From Candidatus Micropelagos thuwalensis (GTDB lineage: Bacteria > Pseudomonadota > Alphaproteobacteria > RS24): a stretch of DNA of 64,000 bases. The stretch's first letter is position 1; every line of letters starts with the position of its first letter. Of this stretch, positions 37,244-61,561 are shown one piece after another. The stretch lies in assembly GCF_000469155.1 (NCBI RefSeq), contig NZ_AWXE01000004.1, forward strand, positions 558,001 to 622,000, in the 5' to 3' direction. A program made the position numbers and the translations under genes. The notes beneath the pieces were generated by a model that was not told the DNA's origin, searched no databases, and saw nothing but the letters and a program-made list of their open reading frames with translations.

Positions 37244-37259
37244 CATCCTCAAGAGGATG
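37244..37259 (-). terminator. Hairpin between holA and parB ends
   Basis: CATCCTCAAGAGGATG is a perfect palindrome covering the parB stop codon. On the minus strand it is followed by TTTATCTTTTT, so it may terminate the parA-parB transcript. The stem is short and the loop small. Confidence 0.45.
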
Positions 37260-38184
37260 CCATGAGACGCCTTACAACCTCATCAAGTTGTTCGAGGGTT
37301 TTGTATGAAACACGAACATGACCCCCGTCTTTTTCATGCTGAATTGCAACGCTTAGGCCCAGATTGTCAGCAATTGACTTCTCCAGCGCCCGCGTATCTG
37401 TATCTTTTTCAGCAGGTTTCTTTGACTTAGACCCACCTTTGCTGGGCTTTTTATCTGCGACAAGCTTCTCAACGTCGCGCACACTGAGGCCTTGCTTGAC
37501 AATATCAGAGGCCAAGCGGTCAGCACTTGGATGCCCCAAAAGTGCCCGGGCATGCCCGGCAGAGAGTTGCCCGGCTACCAGATATTCGCGCACCTTATTG
37601 GTCGCACCAACTAACCGGAGCGTATTGGCAATGTGACTTCTGCTTTTGCCGAGCGTTTTTGCCAGCACCTCTTGCGTGTAACTAAATTCATCAATCAATC
37701 TCTGAAAGCCTTCGGCCTCTTCAATCGGACTTAAATCAGACCGTTGAACATTTTCAATAATACCTATTTGCAGAGCTTCGTTATCGGTCATATCCCGCAC
37801 GATAACGGGAACATCGTGAAGCTGCGCAATTTGCGCGGCACGCCAGCGTCGTTCACCAGCAACAATCTCATATGGGGATTTTGCGCCACCGTCGGGATTA
37901 GGGCGGGCCAAAATTGGCTGCAATATGCCCTTTTCACGAATAGAGTTGGCCAGTTCCCTTAAGGCCCCTTTATCAAATTCGCGCCGCGGTTGGAATTTAC
38001 CCGGGACAAGCTTTTCGACACCTAGAGTACGAAGCCCCTGAGAAGAAGACTCTTCAGATGAAAGGGTGGAGGTTTTTTTGGATTTTTCTTTGGTGGGCGC
38101 TTTGGCATCTGCCGACAGCCCGATATCCACATCACCGATAAGCGCTGACAAGCCACGCCCAAGACCTCTCTTTTTATCCGCCAT
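37249..38184 (-). CDS. parB: Chromosome partitioning protein ParB
   Basis: A 311-residue ParB/Spo0J protein. The N-terminal KKRGLGRGLSALIGD interacts with ParA. The CTP-binding/hydrolysis region holds PRREFDKGALRELANSI and GERRWRAAQIAQ. The helix-turn-helix is SYTQEVLAKTLGKSRSHIANTLRL, followed by GHARALLGH and a C-terminal dimer domain. It loads on parS and spreads as a CTP clamp. The ATG at 38184 is preceded by GGGGAG and overlaps the end of parA by 11 bases. Confidence 0.97.
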   Translation of the reverse strand: MADKKRGLGRGLSALIGDVDIGLSADAKAPTKEKSKKTSTLSSEESSSQGLRTLGVEKLVPGKFQPRREFDKGALRELANSIREKGILQPILARPNPDGGAKSPYEIVAGERRWRAAQIAQLHDVPVIVRDMTDNEALQIGIIENVQRSDLSPIEEAEGFQRLIDEFSYTQEVLAKTLGKSRSHIANTLRLVGATNKVREYLVAGQLSAGHARALLGHPSADRLASDIVKQGLSVRDVEKLVADKKPSKGGSKSKKPAEKDTDTRALEKSIADNLGLSVAIQHEKDGGHVRVSYKTLEQLDEVVRRLMASS

Positions 38185-39058
38185 GATTTTCTCCCCTTTC
38201 AATCGCCCCTTCAGCAGCTATTAACTCATCATTAAGCTGTCTTTCGCGCTGAATAAGCTCGGAAGCCAGTCGCATATAGGCCTGGCTTCCTGCACATTTA
38301 TGATCGTAAAGAAGCGCCGGCTGCCCGAAGGAAGGCGCCTCTGAAATACGCACATTTCTGGGTATTACAGTCTTATAGACACGTTCACCGAGATGCGTGC
38401 GCACATCTTCCTCAACCTGGCCGGAAAGATTGTTGCGCGGATCATACATGGTCAGAACCACGCCTTGAATCTCTAAGCCAGGATTTAGCGCTGTGCGCAC
38501 CTGTTCAATTGTTTTGAGTAGCTGGCTCAGCCCCTCAAGCGCAAAAAACTCACATTGCATCGGCACTAACACGGCATTTGCCGCGGTCATAGCGTTGAGC
38601 GTTAACATGTTAAGCGATGGGGGGCAGTCAATCAGCACATAATTATAGCCAACCGTGCAAGCCTCAAGCGCCTCTTTCAAACGGTGCAAACGCCGCGGAT
38701 TGTCCGCTAAAGCCACCTCAATCCCCAACAAATCCATGCTGGATGCGATAAGGTCACAATTCGGGACAACGGTTTTCGCAACAGCATTACCTAAATCCGT
38801 TTCGTCAAGCAACAGTTCATAGGCCGAGGCCTCGCGGTCTGTCGGATTTACACCCAATCCGGTGCTCGCATTGCCCTGCGGATCAAGGTCTATTAATAAA
38901 ACGCGCTCACCAATTGCGGCCAAAGCCGTGCCGAGGTTAATCGTTGTGGTTGTCTTGCCGACACCCCCCTTTTGGTTCGCCACCGCCAAAATGCGCGGCG
39001 AGGAAGATGCGGCTGGATCTGAAGCTATGGATTGTGAAGAAACCGGCTGAGCTGACAA
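38174..39058 (-). CDS. parA: Chromosome partitioning ATPase ParA
   Basis: A 294-residue deviant-Walker ATPase. NQKGGVGKTTTTINL (28-42) is the deviant P-loop with signature Lys30, LLIDLDPQGNASTG is the A' motif, and VLIDCPPSLN is Walker B. It binds DNA nonspecifically and drives ParB/parS segregation after replication. An extra N-terminal tail of about 20 Ser/Ala-rich residues precedes the fold. Coupled to parB by overlap; rsmG lies 80 bases upstream. Confidence 0.97.
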   Translation of the reverse strand: MSAQPVSSQSIASDPAASSSPRILAVANQKGGVGKTTTTINLGTALAAIGERVLLIDLDPQGNASTGLGVNPTDREASAYELLLDETDLGNAVAKTVVPNCDLIASSMDLLGIEVALADNPRRLHRLKEALEACTVGYNYVLIDCPPSLNMLTLNAMTAANAVLVPMQCEFFALEGLSQLLKTIEQVRTALNPGLEIQGVVLTMYDPRNNLSGQVEEDVRTHLGERVYKTVIPRNVRISEAPSFGQPALLYDHKCAGSQAYMRLASELIQRERQLNDELIAAEGAIERGENHGG

Positions 39059-39138: not shown

Positions 39139-39819
39139 CTAACGCAAACCAGATTGTCGCAATTTAGGTTGACGACAAATCAAGATTTTAGCCTCCTCAT
39201 CCGTCTTACTGGGGACAACCTCAACATCCATATTCCACGAAACCTCGCTCGCCGTCAATTCCTCTTGCCACCCGCGCCCCTTCATAAAGAGGCCTATTGT
39301 GTGGATATCAAAGTATGGCAGAGACATTAAAAGGAGCCTATCCAGCGGCGCAAGTGCGCGGGCGCTAATCACATCTATCTCGGCAAAGATGTCGGGGTTT
39401 TGCTGGCTAATTTCTTCAATTCGACCCTCATGCACCACGGCCGGCGCACCCGTCTCCCTAATAACGGTTTTCAGAAACTCACACTTCCTGCCATCACTTT
39501 CAAGTAAATGCACGGCCCCGCCATCTGTCGCAGGCCGCGACGCCCATATCAGAGCAATCACAAGGCCAGGGAATCCGCCGCCGCTCCCGAGATCCACCCA
39601 CCTCCGCGCCAAAGGGGGTGCAAGGGCCACAAGCTGAGCCGAGTCCGCCACATGCCGCGTCCAAAACTGATGAAGCGTGGCAGGCCCAACAAGGTTAATG
39701 GAACTCTGCCATTTCCCTAAAAGAGACTGATATATCTCTAACCGGTCAATTGTTTCACGTGAAACACCAAAGGCCTGGATGAGATTTTCAATATCCGGGT
39801 TGATATCGGCCTCACGCAT
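39139..39819 (-). CDS. rsmG: 16S rRNA (guanine-N7) methyltransferase RsmG
   Basis: A 226-residue GidB/RsmG enzyme that methylates G527 of 16S rRNA with AdoMet. The SAM-binding loop is [24 protein letters not shown] and [12 protein letters not shown] are the family's RNA-side motifs. The ATG at 39819 is chosen because GGAGGAGG lies three bases upstream and it overlaps the mnmG stop by 8 bases. Codons 18-23 (GVSRET) contain a perfect parS site. Confidence 0.95.
39751..39766. other. parS site inside rsmG
   Basis: TGTTTCACGTGAAACA, the exact 16-base palindromic bacterial parS consensus, within the rsmG coding sequence, 0.7 kb from parA. It is the ParB loading site for chromosome segregation. Confidence 0.95.
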
Positions 39820-41750: not shown

Positions 41751-41766
41751 TGTTTCACGTGAAACA
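41751..41766. other. parS site between mnmG and mnmE
   Basis: A second perfect copy of TGTTTCACGTGAAACA, 38 bases upstream of the mnmG start in the gap to mnmE. Exactly 2.0 kb separates it from the copy in rsmG. Confidence 0.95.
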
Positions 41767-48050: not shown

Positions 48051-49073
48051 TCATCCCTTATTTCGAATATAATCCACCAGTTCAGAAATATGATGCGGTG
48101 GTGTATATTGTTTTATCCCATGACCAAGATTGAAAATATGTCGCCGTCCTTTGGTCACTTCAATTATATCGTCAATTTGTGAAAACATATTTTGTCCACC
48201 ATCAATAAGACATAGCGGATCAAGGTTGCCTTGGCTCACAACTGTATCGGGTAAATCAGCTATGACAGATGAAAGGCGGATATCTTGATCAATACTTATC
48301 GCTTGAACACCAGTTTCAATGGCAAAATCAATATATCTATCTTTTGCACCCCTTGGAAATCCGATAATCGGAGTGGTTATTCCACGCGCACGCAAACCAT
48401 CAATGATTGATTTATTTGGTGCAATACAAAAACGATCAAAATCTTCTCCAATAAGACTGCCGGCCCAACTATCAAAAAGCTGAAGAACTTCTGCACCATG
48501 TTCGACCTGGGACGCTAGATAATCAATCGTAGCTTCAACAATCACATCCAATAAACCTTGAAAAGCAATAATATCATTTTGTTTTAAAGCATGAGCAGGC
48601 CCTTGGTCAGGAGTTCCCCTTCCGGCAATCATATATGTTGCAACTGTCCACGGTGATCCGGCAAAGCCGATAAGTGTTGTTTCCTCAGGGAGGCGTTGTT
48701 TCAGTAAAGAAACTGTTTCGTAAACTGGCTGCATTTGGTGTGATAGATTATCTAAAGACAATGTGTCGGGTGAACTTACTGGTTCAAGACGTGGACCTTC
48801 ACCTTCAACAAACCAGACCTTTTGACCCAGCGCATCAGGAATAAGAAGAATATCTGCAAAGAGAATAGATGCATCAAAAGCGTATTTACGAATAGGTTGA
48901 AGTGTCACTTCACAAGCAAGTTCTGGTGAATAGCAAAGATCTAAAAAACTCCCTGCTTGTTTCCTAACTTTTTTATATTCTGGTAAATATCGACCCGCTT
49001 GGCGCATAAGCCAGATTGGTGGCGACTTAGGACACTCTATATTATTAAAAACTGATAGGATTGTTTTTTGCAT
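48051..49073 (-). CDS. hemE: Uroporphyrinogen decarboxylase
   Basis: A 340-residue HemE, normal length. PPIWLMRQAGRYLPEYKKVR is the N-terminal signature with the substrate-binding Arg pair, and FAGSPWTVATYM and GFPRGAKDRY follow. It removes four carboxyls from uroporphyrinogen III to give coproporphyrinogen III in haem synthesis. Its start faces the predicted origin, the same arrangement as in Caulobacter. Confidence 0.97.
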   Translation of the reverse strand: MQKTILSVFNNIECPKSPPIWLMRQAGRYLPEYKKVRKQAGSFLDLCYSPELACEVTLQPIRKYAFDASILFADILLIPDALGQKVWFVEGEGPRLEPVSSPDTLSLDNLSHQMQPVYETVSLLKQRLPEETTLIGFAGSPWTVATYMIAGRGTPDQGPAHALKQNDIIAFQGLLDVIVEATIDYLASQVEHGAEVLQLFDSWAGSLIGEDFDRFCIAPNKSIIDGLRARGITTPIIGFPRGAKDRYIDFAIETGVQAISIDQDIRLSSVIADLPDTVVSQGNLDPLCLIDGGQNMFSQIDDIIEVTKGRRHIFNLGHGIKQYTPPHHISELVDYIRNKG

Positions 49074-49130
49074 ATTTGAGAACTTGTCGTGTTTTTACTG
49101 AAATTTAGCTCGGCGCTAATGTTATTTCCT

Positions 49131-49150
49131 TTTACTATATATATATAAAA
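49131..49150. other. AT-rich tract, possible DNA unwinding element
   Basis: A twenty-base tract with a single C, including alternating TA, 33 bases from the perfect DnaA box. Role as unwinding element is inference. Confidence 0.4.
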
Positions 49151-49182
49151 AGAAAGTAGATGTATTAGTGTCCCTGTTCTGC

Positions 49183-49191
49183 TGTGGATAA
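49183..49191 (-). other. DnaA box (perfect)
   Basis: TGTGGATAA, the reverse complement of the consensus TTATCCACA, inside the predicted origin. Confidence 0.8.
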
Positions 49192-49346
49192 TATGTTTTA
49201 CACATACTTATCAAGAGGGACGCGCTGCGCATAAATATTTCTTGAAAATTGGATGAGTGAGCAAGATATACACATTTTGTTCAGGCTTTTAATTTTATCT
49301 GCATAAACTCTGCTTAATTTTGACGTTTTAGGCGATATTAGGTGTG

Positions 49347-49355
49347 TGTGAATAA
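49347..49355 (-). other. DnaA box (one mismatch)
   Basis: TGTGAATAA, reverse complement of TTATTCACA, a frequent functional variant. Confidence 0.6.
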
Positions 49356-49518
49356 TGATAAAAACGGGGATAAATAAATCTGACAATAGTTCTATCAGTT
49401 TTCCCACTTATTCAGATTAGTTTAAGACGATTTATTAAACCATGCATAAATCATCCAACAAAATATCAAACATGGGTATAAAATTTCTTGGGTTTGTAAA
49501 ATAAGCCCCTTATCCTTG

Positions 49519-49527
49519 TTATTCACA
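49519..49527 (+). other. DnaA box (one mismatch)
   Basis: TTATTCACA on the plus strand, near the right end of the predicted origin. Confidence 0.6.
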
Positions 49528-49615
49528 TGATTCACAATTCCATTGAGGCGTGAACGGCATATGTCATTCTCAATTTTGGCGTTTAAGATGAGATATAAAT
49601 GAGAGAGAAAAAAGA

Positions 49616-50455
49616 ATGAATGAGTCCGAAAAGCTATTTCACTTATACTTGATATCTGACAGTACGGGCGAGACCATTAACGCTGTTGCCAAAGCAGTGT
49701 GCGCGCGTTTTGAGGGCGCGCGTGCGATTGAACATAGCTATGGGCTTATTCGTTCAAGCAAGCAGTTGGATAGAGCCCTGAAAGCTATAGAGTCCGCCCC
49801 GGGGCCAGTCTTATATAGTATTGTTCAACCGGAACTATCGTCTCGTCTTGAAGAGGCCTGCCAAAGTTTTGATATTCCCTGTATCTCAGTACTGGATCCG
49901 TTTGTGACTATTTTGGGGTCTTATTTAGGTGTTGGCTTGAGGGGTCAACCGGGGCGCCAAAACCCAATGAATAAGGAATATTTTGAGCGTATCGCGGCTT
50001 TAAATTATACAGTGTCGCATGATGATGGTCAGAACCAGCATGATTTAGAAGAGGCTGACATTGTCCTTGTTGGGGTCAGTCGTACATCTAAAACTCCGAC
50101 ATGTATGTATCTGGCTAATCGGGGTATCAAAGCGGCAAATGTGCCATTAGTGCCTGGCGTGAGCCCCACGGATGATTTGATGTCTCTGACCAAGCCGCTG
50201 GTTATTGGTTTGACGGCAAGCCCGGACCGTCTGGTGCAAATTAGAAAAAACCGACTTTTGTCTCTCAATGAAACTGGAGAGACAGACTATATCGACCCGA
50301 GCTATGTTAAAGAAGAAACAACTGAAGCAAGAAGGTTATTTGCGCGAAAAAACTGGCATGTCATAGATGTGACCCGACGCTCGATTGAAGAAACATCAGC
50401 AGAAATATTGAATATTTTTCAAAGCCGTGATGAGCAGGAAAAGGGCGCATTGTGA
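49616..50455 (+). CDS. PPDK/PEP synthase regulatory protein (DUF299)
   Basis: A 279-residue bifunctional kinase/pyrophosphorylase of the DUF299 family (RP001 homologue). LYLISDSTGETINAVAKA is the N-terminal signature, NYTVSHDDGQN follows, and GVSRTSKTPTCMYLANRGIKAANVPLVPG holds the P-loop-like segment. It switches pyruvate phosphate dikinase or PEP synthase by ADP-dependent phosphorylation of a threonine. First gene right of the origin; overlaps maf. Confidence 0.94.
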   Translation: MNESEKLFHLYLISDSTGETINAVAKAVCARFEGARAIEHSYGLIRSSKQLDRALKAIESAPGPVLYSIVQPELSSRLEEACQSFDIPCISVLDPFVTILGSYLGVGLRGQPGRQNPMNKEYFERIAALNYTVSHDDGQNQHDLEEADIVLVGVSRTSKTPTCMYLANRGIKAANVPLVPGVSPTDDLMSLTKPLVIGLTASPDRLVQIRKNRLLSLNETGETDYIDPSYVKEETTEARRLFARKNWHVIDVTRRSIEETSAEILNIFQSRDEQEKGAL

Positions 50456-61108: not shown

Positions 61109-61561
61109 ATGAGAAAATTTCTGTGGATAAGTTTGTGTTTCACGCTTCTGGCTTCGTGCGCGGGTGAAGCTTATTATGCCGCTAATTCAGAGAATGGCGA
61201 ACTTGTCACACCTGCTTATAATCAGGAAAAAATGCAATCACAGCAGGCCGATGCTACTTTTGATAATATGCAAGCGCCTTCTAAATTAGCGTTACAAAAT
61301 ATTCAACTTGCTCGACTAGGGGAACCTTCATTGGTTTGGCGTGAAGGTAAGACGACGATACTGCAATTTGCAGGAATGCCCGAAGATAAAAGGGTGCCGG
61401 ATTGTACTCTGCTCGTTTTTCTGGATGCGCGCGGCCAGCCAACTGGACTTCATTCCAGAAACCCTGCGGGTTCCGATGTAAATAGAGTTGACGACTATGC
61501 TGATAATGCCGCTTGCTTCAAAGCATGGAGCAAATTTAAAAGGCGGAAATATCGCGGGTGA
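61109..61561 (+). CDS. Lipoprotein, unknown
   Basis: A 150-residue lipoprotein with signal MRKFLWISLCFTLLASC and lipobox LASC. The mature part has a SmpA/OmlA-like feel (LARLGEPSLVWREGKTTILQFAG) but no clear match, and two later cysteines (PDC, AAC) that could pair. The ATG at 61109 is chosen for the signal peptide; the frame is open 72 bases upstream. No ribosome site is obvious. It stands alone. Confidence 0.7.
   Translation: MRKFLWISLCFTLLASCAGEAYYAANSENGELVTPAYNQEKMQSQQADATFDNMQAPSKLALQNIQLARLGEPSLVWREGKTTILQFAGMPEDKRVPDCTLLVFLDARGQPTGLHSRNPAGSDVNRVDDYADNAACFKAWSKFKRRKYRG

Follow-up and report, generated by a model that had tools for sequence, protein, structure and literature searches.

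A predicted chromosomal replication origin between hemE and a ppsR-like gene in a PS1-clade marine alphaproteobacterium

The gap between hemE and an RP001-type gene (ppsR-like, here ppsR) is almost certainly the single site at which chromosome copying starts in a marine bacterium of the PS1 clade. The location is an ordinary one, the usual one for Alphaproteobacteria, since the same gene arrangement has been described for Caulobacter and Rickettsia (PMC1914354), and the gap is thus a further example of a known origin type. An initial annotation had predicted an origin here; the skew minimum, the parS sites, synteny and DnaA-box footprints all agree with it, and we assign oriC to this gap with very little doubt. 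We found no published replication origin for the PS1 clade in the literature. The DNA analyzed is a 64-kb stretch (the window; G000:C4:558001-622000) from a genome of 1.96 Mb in five contigs. The nearest named relatives of its RP001-type protein, with 94 to 95% identity, come from PS1-clade and "Rhodobiaceae" marine genomes including IMCC14465, and the window's organism is a PS1-clade alphaproteobacterium of the same genus as IMCC14465.

The gap measures exactly 542 bp, lies between divergent genes (hemE ends at 49073 on the minus strand and ppsR starts at 49616 on the plus strand), and is AT rich (67.9% AT versus 53.2% for the window), all as initially annotated. Since a search of positions 48900 to 49800 matched no Rfam family, this region holds no RNA known to Rfam. 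The claim that Caulobacter Cori and the Rickettsia origin have the same boundary genes also holds, and the arrangement is class-wide: divergent hemE was found beside ppsR in 76 of the 88 alphaproteobacterial loci checked, i.e., in 28/30 of a first set (which includes the window itself and in which the other two loci are contigs that end too early) and in 48/58 of a second, class-wide set. Genes to the right of the gap run mostly rightward, as had been proposed (15 [+] versus 5 [-], with long open reading frames [ORFs] as proxies). To the left, where a leftward majority had been claimed, the proxies number 25 (+) versus 19 (-) and the leftward lean is limited to the nearest 15 kb (8 [-] versus 4 [+]), so left-side orientation was dropped as evidence for an origin.

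The initial annotation had proposed GC skew as a check, a minimum far from the gap speaking against an origin there. We computed skew from stretches totaling ∼1.26 of 1.96 Mb (∼64% of the genome). On the 882-kb contig C4, negative GC skew prevails up to the gap and positive skew after it; within the 760 kb of this contig that was sampled, cumulative GC skew reaches its minimum at window position 48651, which is ∼0.4 kb from the gap, and keto skew reaches its own at 48953. The GC-skew maximum lies on another contig, near 354 kb in the sampled part of C1, which is the likely replication terminus; with the three small contigs placed on the right arm, an inferred contig order, the replichores would measure about 0.97 and 0.99 Mb. 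A stretch of C1 with otherwise positive skew shows weak or negative values at ∼40 to 150 kb, possibly through an inversion or a misjoin. An origin at dnaA (C4, 687 kb) was rejected, as skew does not turn there. The dnaA gene (G000:C4:687595-687801; L097) has an apparent dnaN after it and is 80 kb from the origin, a distance that says little either way in Alphaproteobacteria. The 1.96-Mb genome has only two perfect parS sites. They are 7.3 and 9.3 kb distant from the gap, beside ORFs that read as parA and parB (Table 1).

The gap contains five DnaA boxes. The perfect box and the two one-mismatch boxes of the initial annotation were recovered at their positions and on the strands listed in Table 1, and a slightly wider pattern yielded two further ones, at 49196-49204 (+) and 49528-49536 (+). 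Five boxes per 542 bp compares with a mean of 0.05, and any other 542-bp stretch of the 1.26 Mb sampled has at most 2. A second perfect TTATCCACA is found in isolation at window positions 61122 to 61130, 12 kb to the right of the gap. Alignment within the genus revealed near-identical blocks in an otherwise variable gap; the close-relative scan of genome contigs covered five genomes, and the broader sample came from a genome search.

Table 1. Features of the predicted origin and its surroundings (window positions)
Feature	Position	Strand	Basis
parB homologue, named from sequence	37249..38202	-	ORF translation
parA homologue, named from sequence	38174..39058	-	ORF translation
parS, perfect TGTTTCACGTGAAACA	39751..39766 (G000:C4:597751-597766)		Genome-wide search
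parS, perfect TGTTTCACGTGAAACA	41751..41766 (G000:C4:599751-599766)		Genome-wide search
hemE, uroporphyrinogen decarboxylase, left boundary	48051..49073	-	PF01208, E=2e-99
Predicted oriC, 542-bp intergenic region	49074..49615		GC-skew minimum, parS proximity, highest DnaA-box density sampled, class-wide synteny
Predicted duplex-unwinding element, contains AT tract 49130-49151	49117..49166		Nearest-neighbor energies; tract conserved in genus
DnaA-trio-like repeats AAG TAG ATG TAT TAG, degenerate	49154..49168	+	Scan (five trios, spacer 14); family sequences
14-bp spacer, trios to DnaA box	49169..49182		Same length in 17/17 family members with a unit detected by the scan
DnaA box TTATCCACA, box of the unwinding unit	49183..49191	-	Pattern scan, genus alignment, unit scan
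Weak DnaA box TTTTACACA	49196..49204	+	Wider pattern scan
DnaA box TTATTCACA, in 6/6 genus members, then GGGGATAA (49366-49373)	49347..49355	-	Scan, alignment
Weak DnaA box TTATTCAGA	49408..49416	+	Sequence, genus alignment
AT element GATTTATTAAACC, conserved and near-palindromic in relatives; left end of module	49429..49441		Family spacing
CTTGG element, 23 bp before DnaA-box array	49487..49491	+	Offset -23 in 23/23 family members
Head-to-tail DnaA-box array, three abutting 9-mers TTATCCTTG / TTATTCACA / TGATTCACA (one-mismatch box TTATTCACA at 49519-49527)	49510..49536	+	Alignment, family comparison
Only GANTC (putative CcrM) site in gap, inside third array box	49529..49533		In 6/6 genus members
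ppsR-like kinase/pyrophosphorylase gene (RP001/COG1806/DUF299 type), right boundary	49616..50455	+	PF03618, E=1e-89

The 50-mer at 49117-49166, on the hemE side of the gap, is the least stable of the 64-kb window by nearest-neighbor energy. It contains the near-pure AT tract already pointed out in the initial annotation, which we place at 49130-49151 and found to be all A/T save one C. Beyond the tract come trio-like repeats, a spacer and the perfect DnaA box; counted from the box, the trios read TAG, TAT, ATG, TAG and AAG, four of which fit the trio pattern 3'-NAN-5' while one interrupts the run. The repeats are cleaner in most sister genera (runs of TAG, TTG and TAA, e.g., TAA TAG TAG TTG TTG TAG in L079). 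Scanning for such units recovered one in 17 of 24 family gaps, each time with a spacer of 14 bp. Several of the seven gaps without a score keep the layout with a poorer box, TGTTGATTA, which the box filter of the scan left out; in at least L080 and L086 to L090, TTG repeats and this poorer box occupy the same place. The unit score exceeded the 95th percentile of shuffled sequences in 44/76 gaps. Because we devised the scoring scheme ourselves after seeing the family sequences, and because the family members are related, this result is supportive and does not constitute an independent test.

On the ppsR side, all 23 family members examined carry a rigid module of ∼115 bp that ends in the DnaA-box array. 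A TTWATAA-type element precedes CTTGG by 55 or 54 bp in 22/22 members measured, and the 18 bases between CTTGG and the array vary in sequence while the distance is constant. Comparable arrays were found outside the family in L120, L129 and L140, 56 to 111 bp before ppsR, with scores above every shuffle. As the spacing between CTTGG and TATCCT is constant and promoter-like, the ppsR promoter may overlap the array; a sigma-70 scan of the gap called no site, so that the reading of CTTGG-N18-TTATCC as a promoter stays a conjecture.

This same constant, promoter-like spacing in all family members could suggest that the gap is a mere bidirectional hemE/ppsR promoter region, kept by gene order, and that replication begins elsewhere. 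We consider this extremely improbable: the skew minimum, the proximity of parS and the box density all point to the gap, the DnaA boxes rank among its most conserved elements, and the sigma-70 scan found nothing promoter-like in it. If the origin lies here, it might still open next to ppsR, inside the array module or immediately beyond it, the hemE-side tract being simply AT rich. DnaA arrays often adjoin the opening site, and the most rigidly conserved module of the family sits on that side; however, it is the hemE side that has both the least stable DNA and the box-spacer-trio arrangement, and the stretch beyond the array shows poor conservation within the genus, which makes opening next to ppsR rather unlikely. 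Unwinding on the hemE side, within the predicted element, is the probable course.

We then considered the regulators known from Caulobacter. The initial annotation had described the lack of a TTAA-N7-TTAA CtrA site as a difference from that organism. Our scan verified that the gap has no such site, and no full CtrA site was present in the gap of any PS1-family member scanned. The departure is smaller than implied, because CtrA sites are not a general feature of origins in Alphaproteobacteria, having been unseen except in Caulobacter and possibly Rickettsia (PMC4468827), and because no ctrA is detectable here. A search of this genome with an approximate C. crescentus CtrA sequence as the query gave no match at E≤1e-40. 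The query matches full-length proteins with 52 to 88% identity in most of the class and 45 to 54% in the PS1 family, and CtrA is strongly diverged in the PS1-family genomes that keep it (G000 to G017 searched). In IMCC14465, ctrA (L163:5150-5833) lies between hisN-like and mnmA-like genes; in our genome, these two genes are adjacent on one contig, 0.23 kb apart and with no ctrA match between them (L169:10051-12299; G000:C4, about 144.1 to 146.3 kb). The ctrA gene thus appears to have been lost from this genome, in which none is detectable. Two other genomes of the genus, G003 and G004, also lack a CtrA match, which may reflect assembly gaps as the neighboring gene is missing too. Since the absence of ctrA has been reported for Pelagibacter and Granulibacter (PMC2877005), the present loss is a further case and not the first. 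ChpT (PF10090) was not detected in 18 family genomes by a search that was positive in Caulobacter.

CtrA or another response regulator might still repress the origin through GATTTATTAAACC instead of TTAA-N7-TTAA. The position of this element is fixed across the family, TTAAACCATGCATAA (49435-49449) is one mismatch off the full CtrA motif, and the CtrA homologue retained by the genus-mate IMCC14465 keeps a CtrA-like DNA-binding segment. Against this, the element is retained in a genome without detectable ctrA, and the five OmpR-type regulators encoded there all fall short of the CtrA family cutoff, so that we regard such repression as distinctly unlikely and favor an origin without a CtrA brake. 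GcrA is present in the genome, together with a CcrM homologue that scores 615 bits, below the NCBI cutoff of 830. GANTC sites number 87 in the window versus 209 expected, a strong depletion consistent with avoidance of CcrM sites. Enrichment of GANTC at the origin was rejected, with one site in the gap versus a window density of 1.36 per kb. No IHF site (WATCAANNNNTTR) was found in the gap within one mismatch, and counts of this pattern in the window are at chance level.

Caulobacter crescentus Cori shares with this gap its place between hemE and the COG1806 gene, the AT-rich tract and five DnaA boxes (PMC1914354) and a nearby parS (≤8 kb from Cori in C. crescentus; PMC4468827). In its T-to-G change, the third array box, TGATTCACA, is similar to a Cori G-box. 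Cori differs in having five CtrA sites and one IHF site, neither of which was found here, and in using weak G- and W-boxes (PMC4468827), whereas our gap has one perfect and two one-mismatch boxes. The Rickettsia prowazekii origin has the same boundary genes and an AT-rich gap (384 bp, 82.6% AT; PMC1914354), but the CtrA and IHF sites proposed there were not seen here. The hemE side follows the order of the basal unwinding system (BUS) of Bacillus subtilis, with a box, a short spacer, DnaA-trios and an AT tract (PMC8287927); a BUS has been predicted in 85% of 2,070 bacterial origins, with trios ≤16 bp from the box (PMC8287927). Unlike in the BUS, only one recognizable box lies by the spacer here, and the trios are degenerate in the genus and often TTG for TAG in sister genera. 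The Sinorhizobium meliloti origin likewise has no CtrA motifs, and CtrA does not bind to it (PMC4433202); that species retains a CtrA that couples replication to division, whereas ctrA is not detectable here.

The position of the gap, the cluster of DnaA boxes, the weak AT tract and the conserved modules can be read directly from the sequence, and from them we infer hemE-side opening and control by DnaA only. We propose the following as the likely mechanism. DnaA-ATP would load onto the cluster of boxes, with the conserved three-box array next to ppsR and the mid-gap boxes as nucleation sites. On the hemE side, DnaA bound to the unwinding-unit box would form a filament that crosses the 14-bp spacer, engages the predicted trios on one strand and opens the AT tract, where the helicase would be loaded and from which two forks would depart in opposite directions. 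The copies would be segregated by parABS, 7 to 12 kb to the left of the gap. With no CtrA brake, timing would be set by DnaA itself, perhaps together with methylation by CcrM in the third array box. Control of this origin looks stripped down, since no gene is detectable for CtrA, which in Caulobacter acts as a block on the equivalent origin.

A wider proposal, speculative and on balance improbable, is that origin control in the PS1 family has been rebuilt to work without CtrA, as ChpT was undetected in the 18 genomes and CtrA is diverged or, in this species, deleted. The 115-bp module (AT element, CTTGG, three boxes and, in this genus, a CcrM site in the last box) would then be a switch timed by DnaA and methylation that also drives ppsR transcription.

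The conserved footprints supply a concrete candidate opening site and DnaA array. With ctrA apparently lost but GcrA and a CcrM homologue retained, this lineage would offer a natural experiment on what the Caulobacter-type cell cycle circuit needs. A fixed origin would give the direction of replication and the likely terminus for a marine clade, and its location would enable growth rates of the PS1 clade to be estimated from metagenome coverage.
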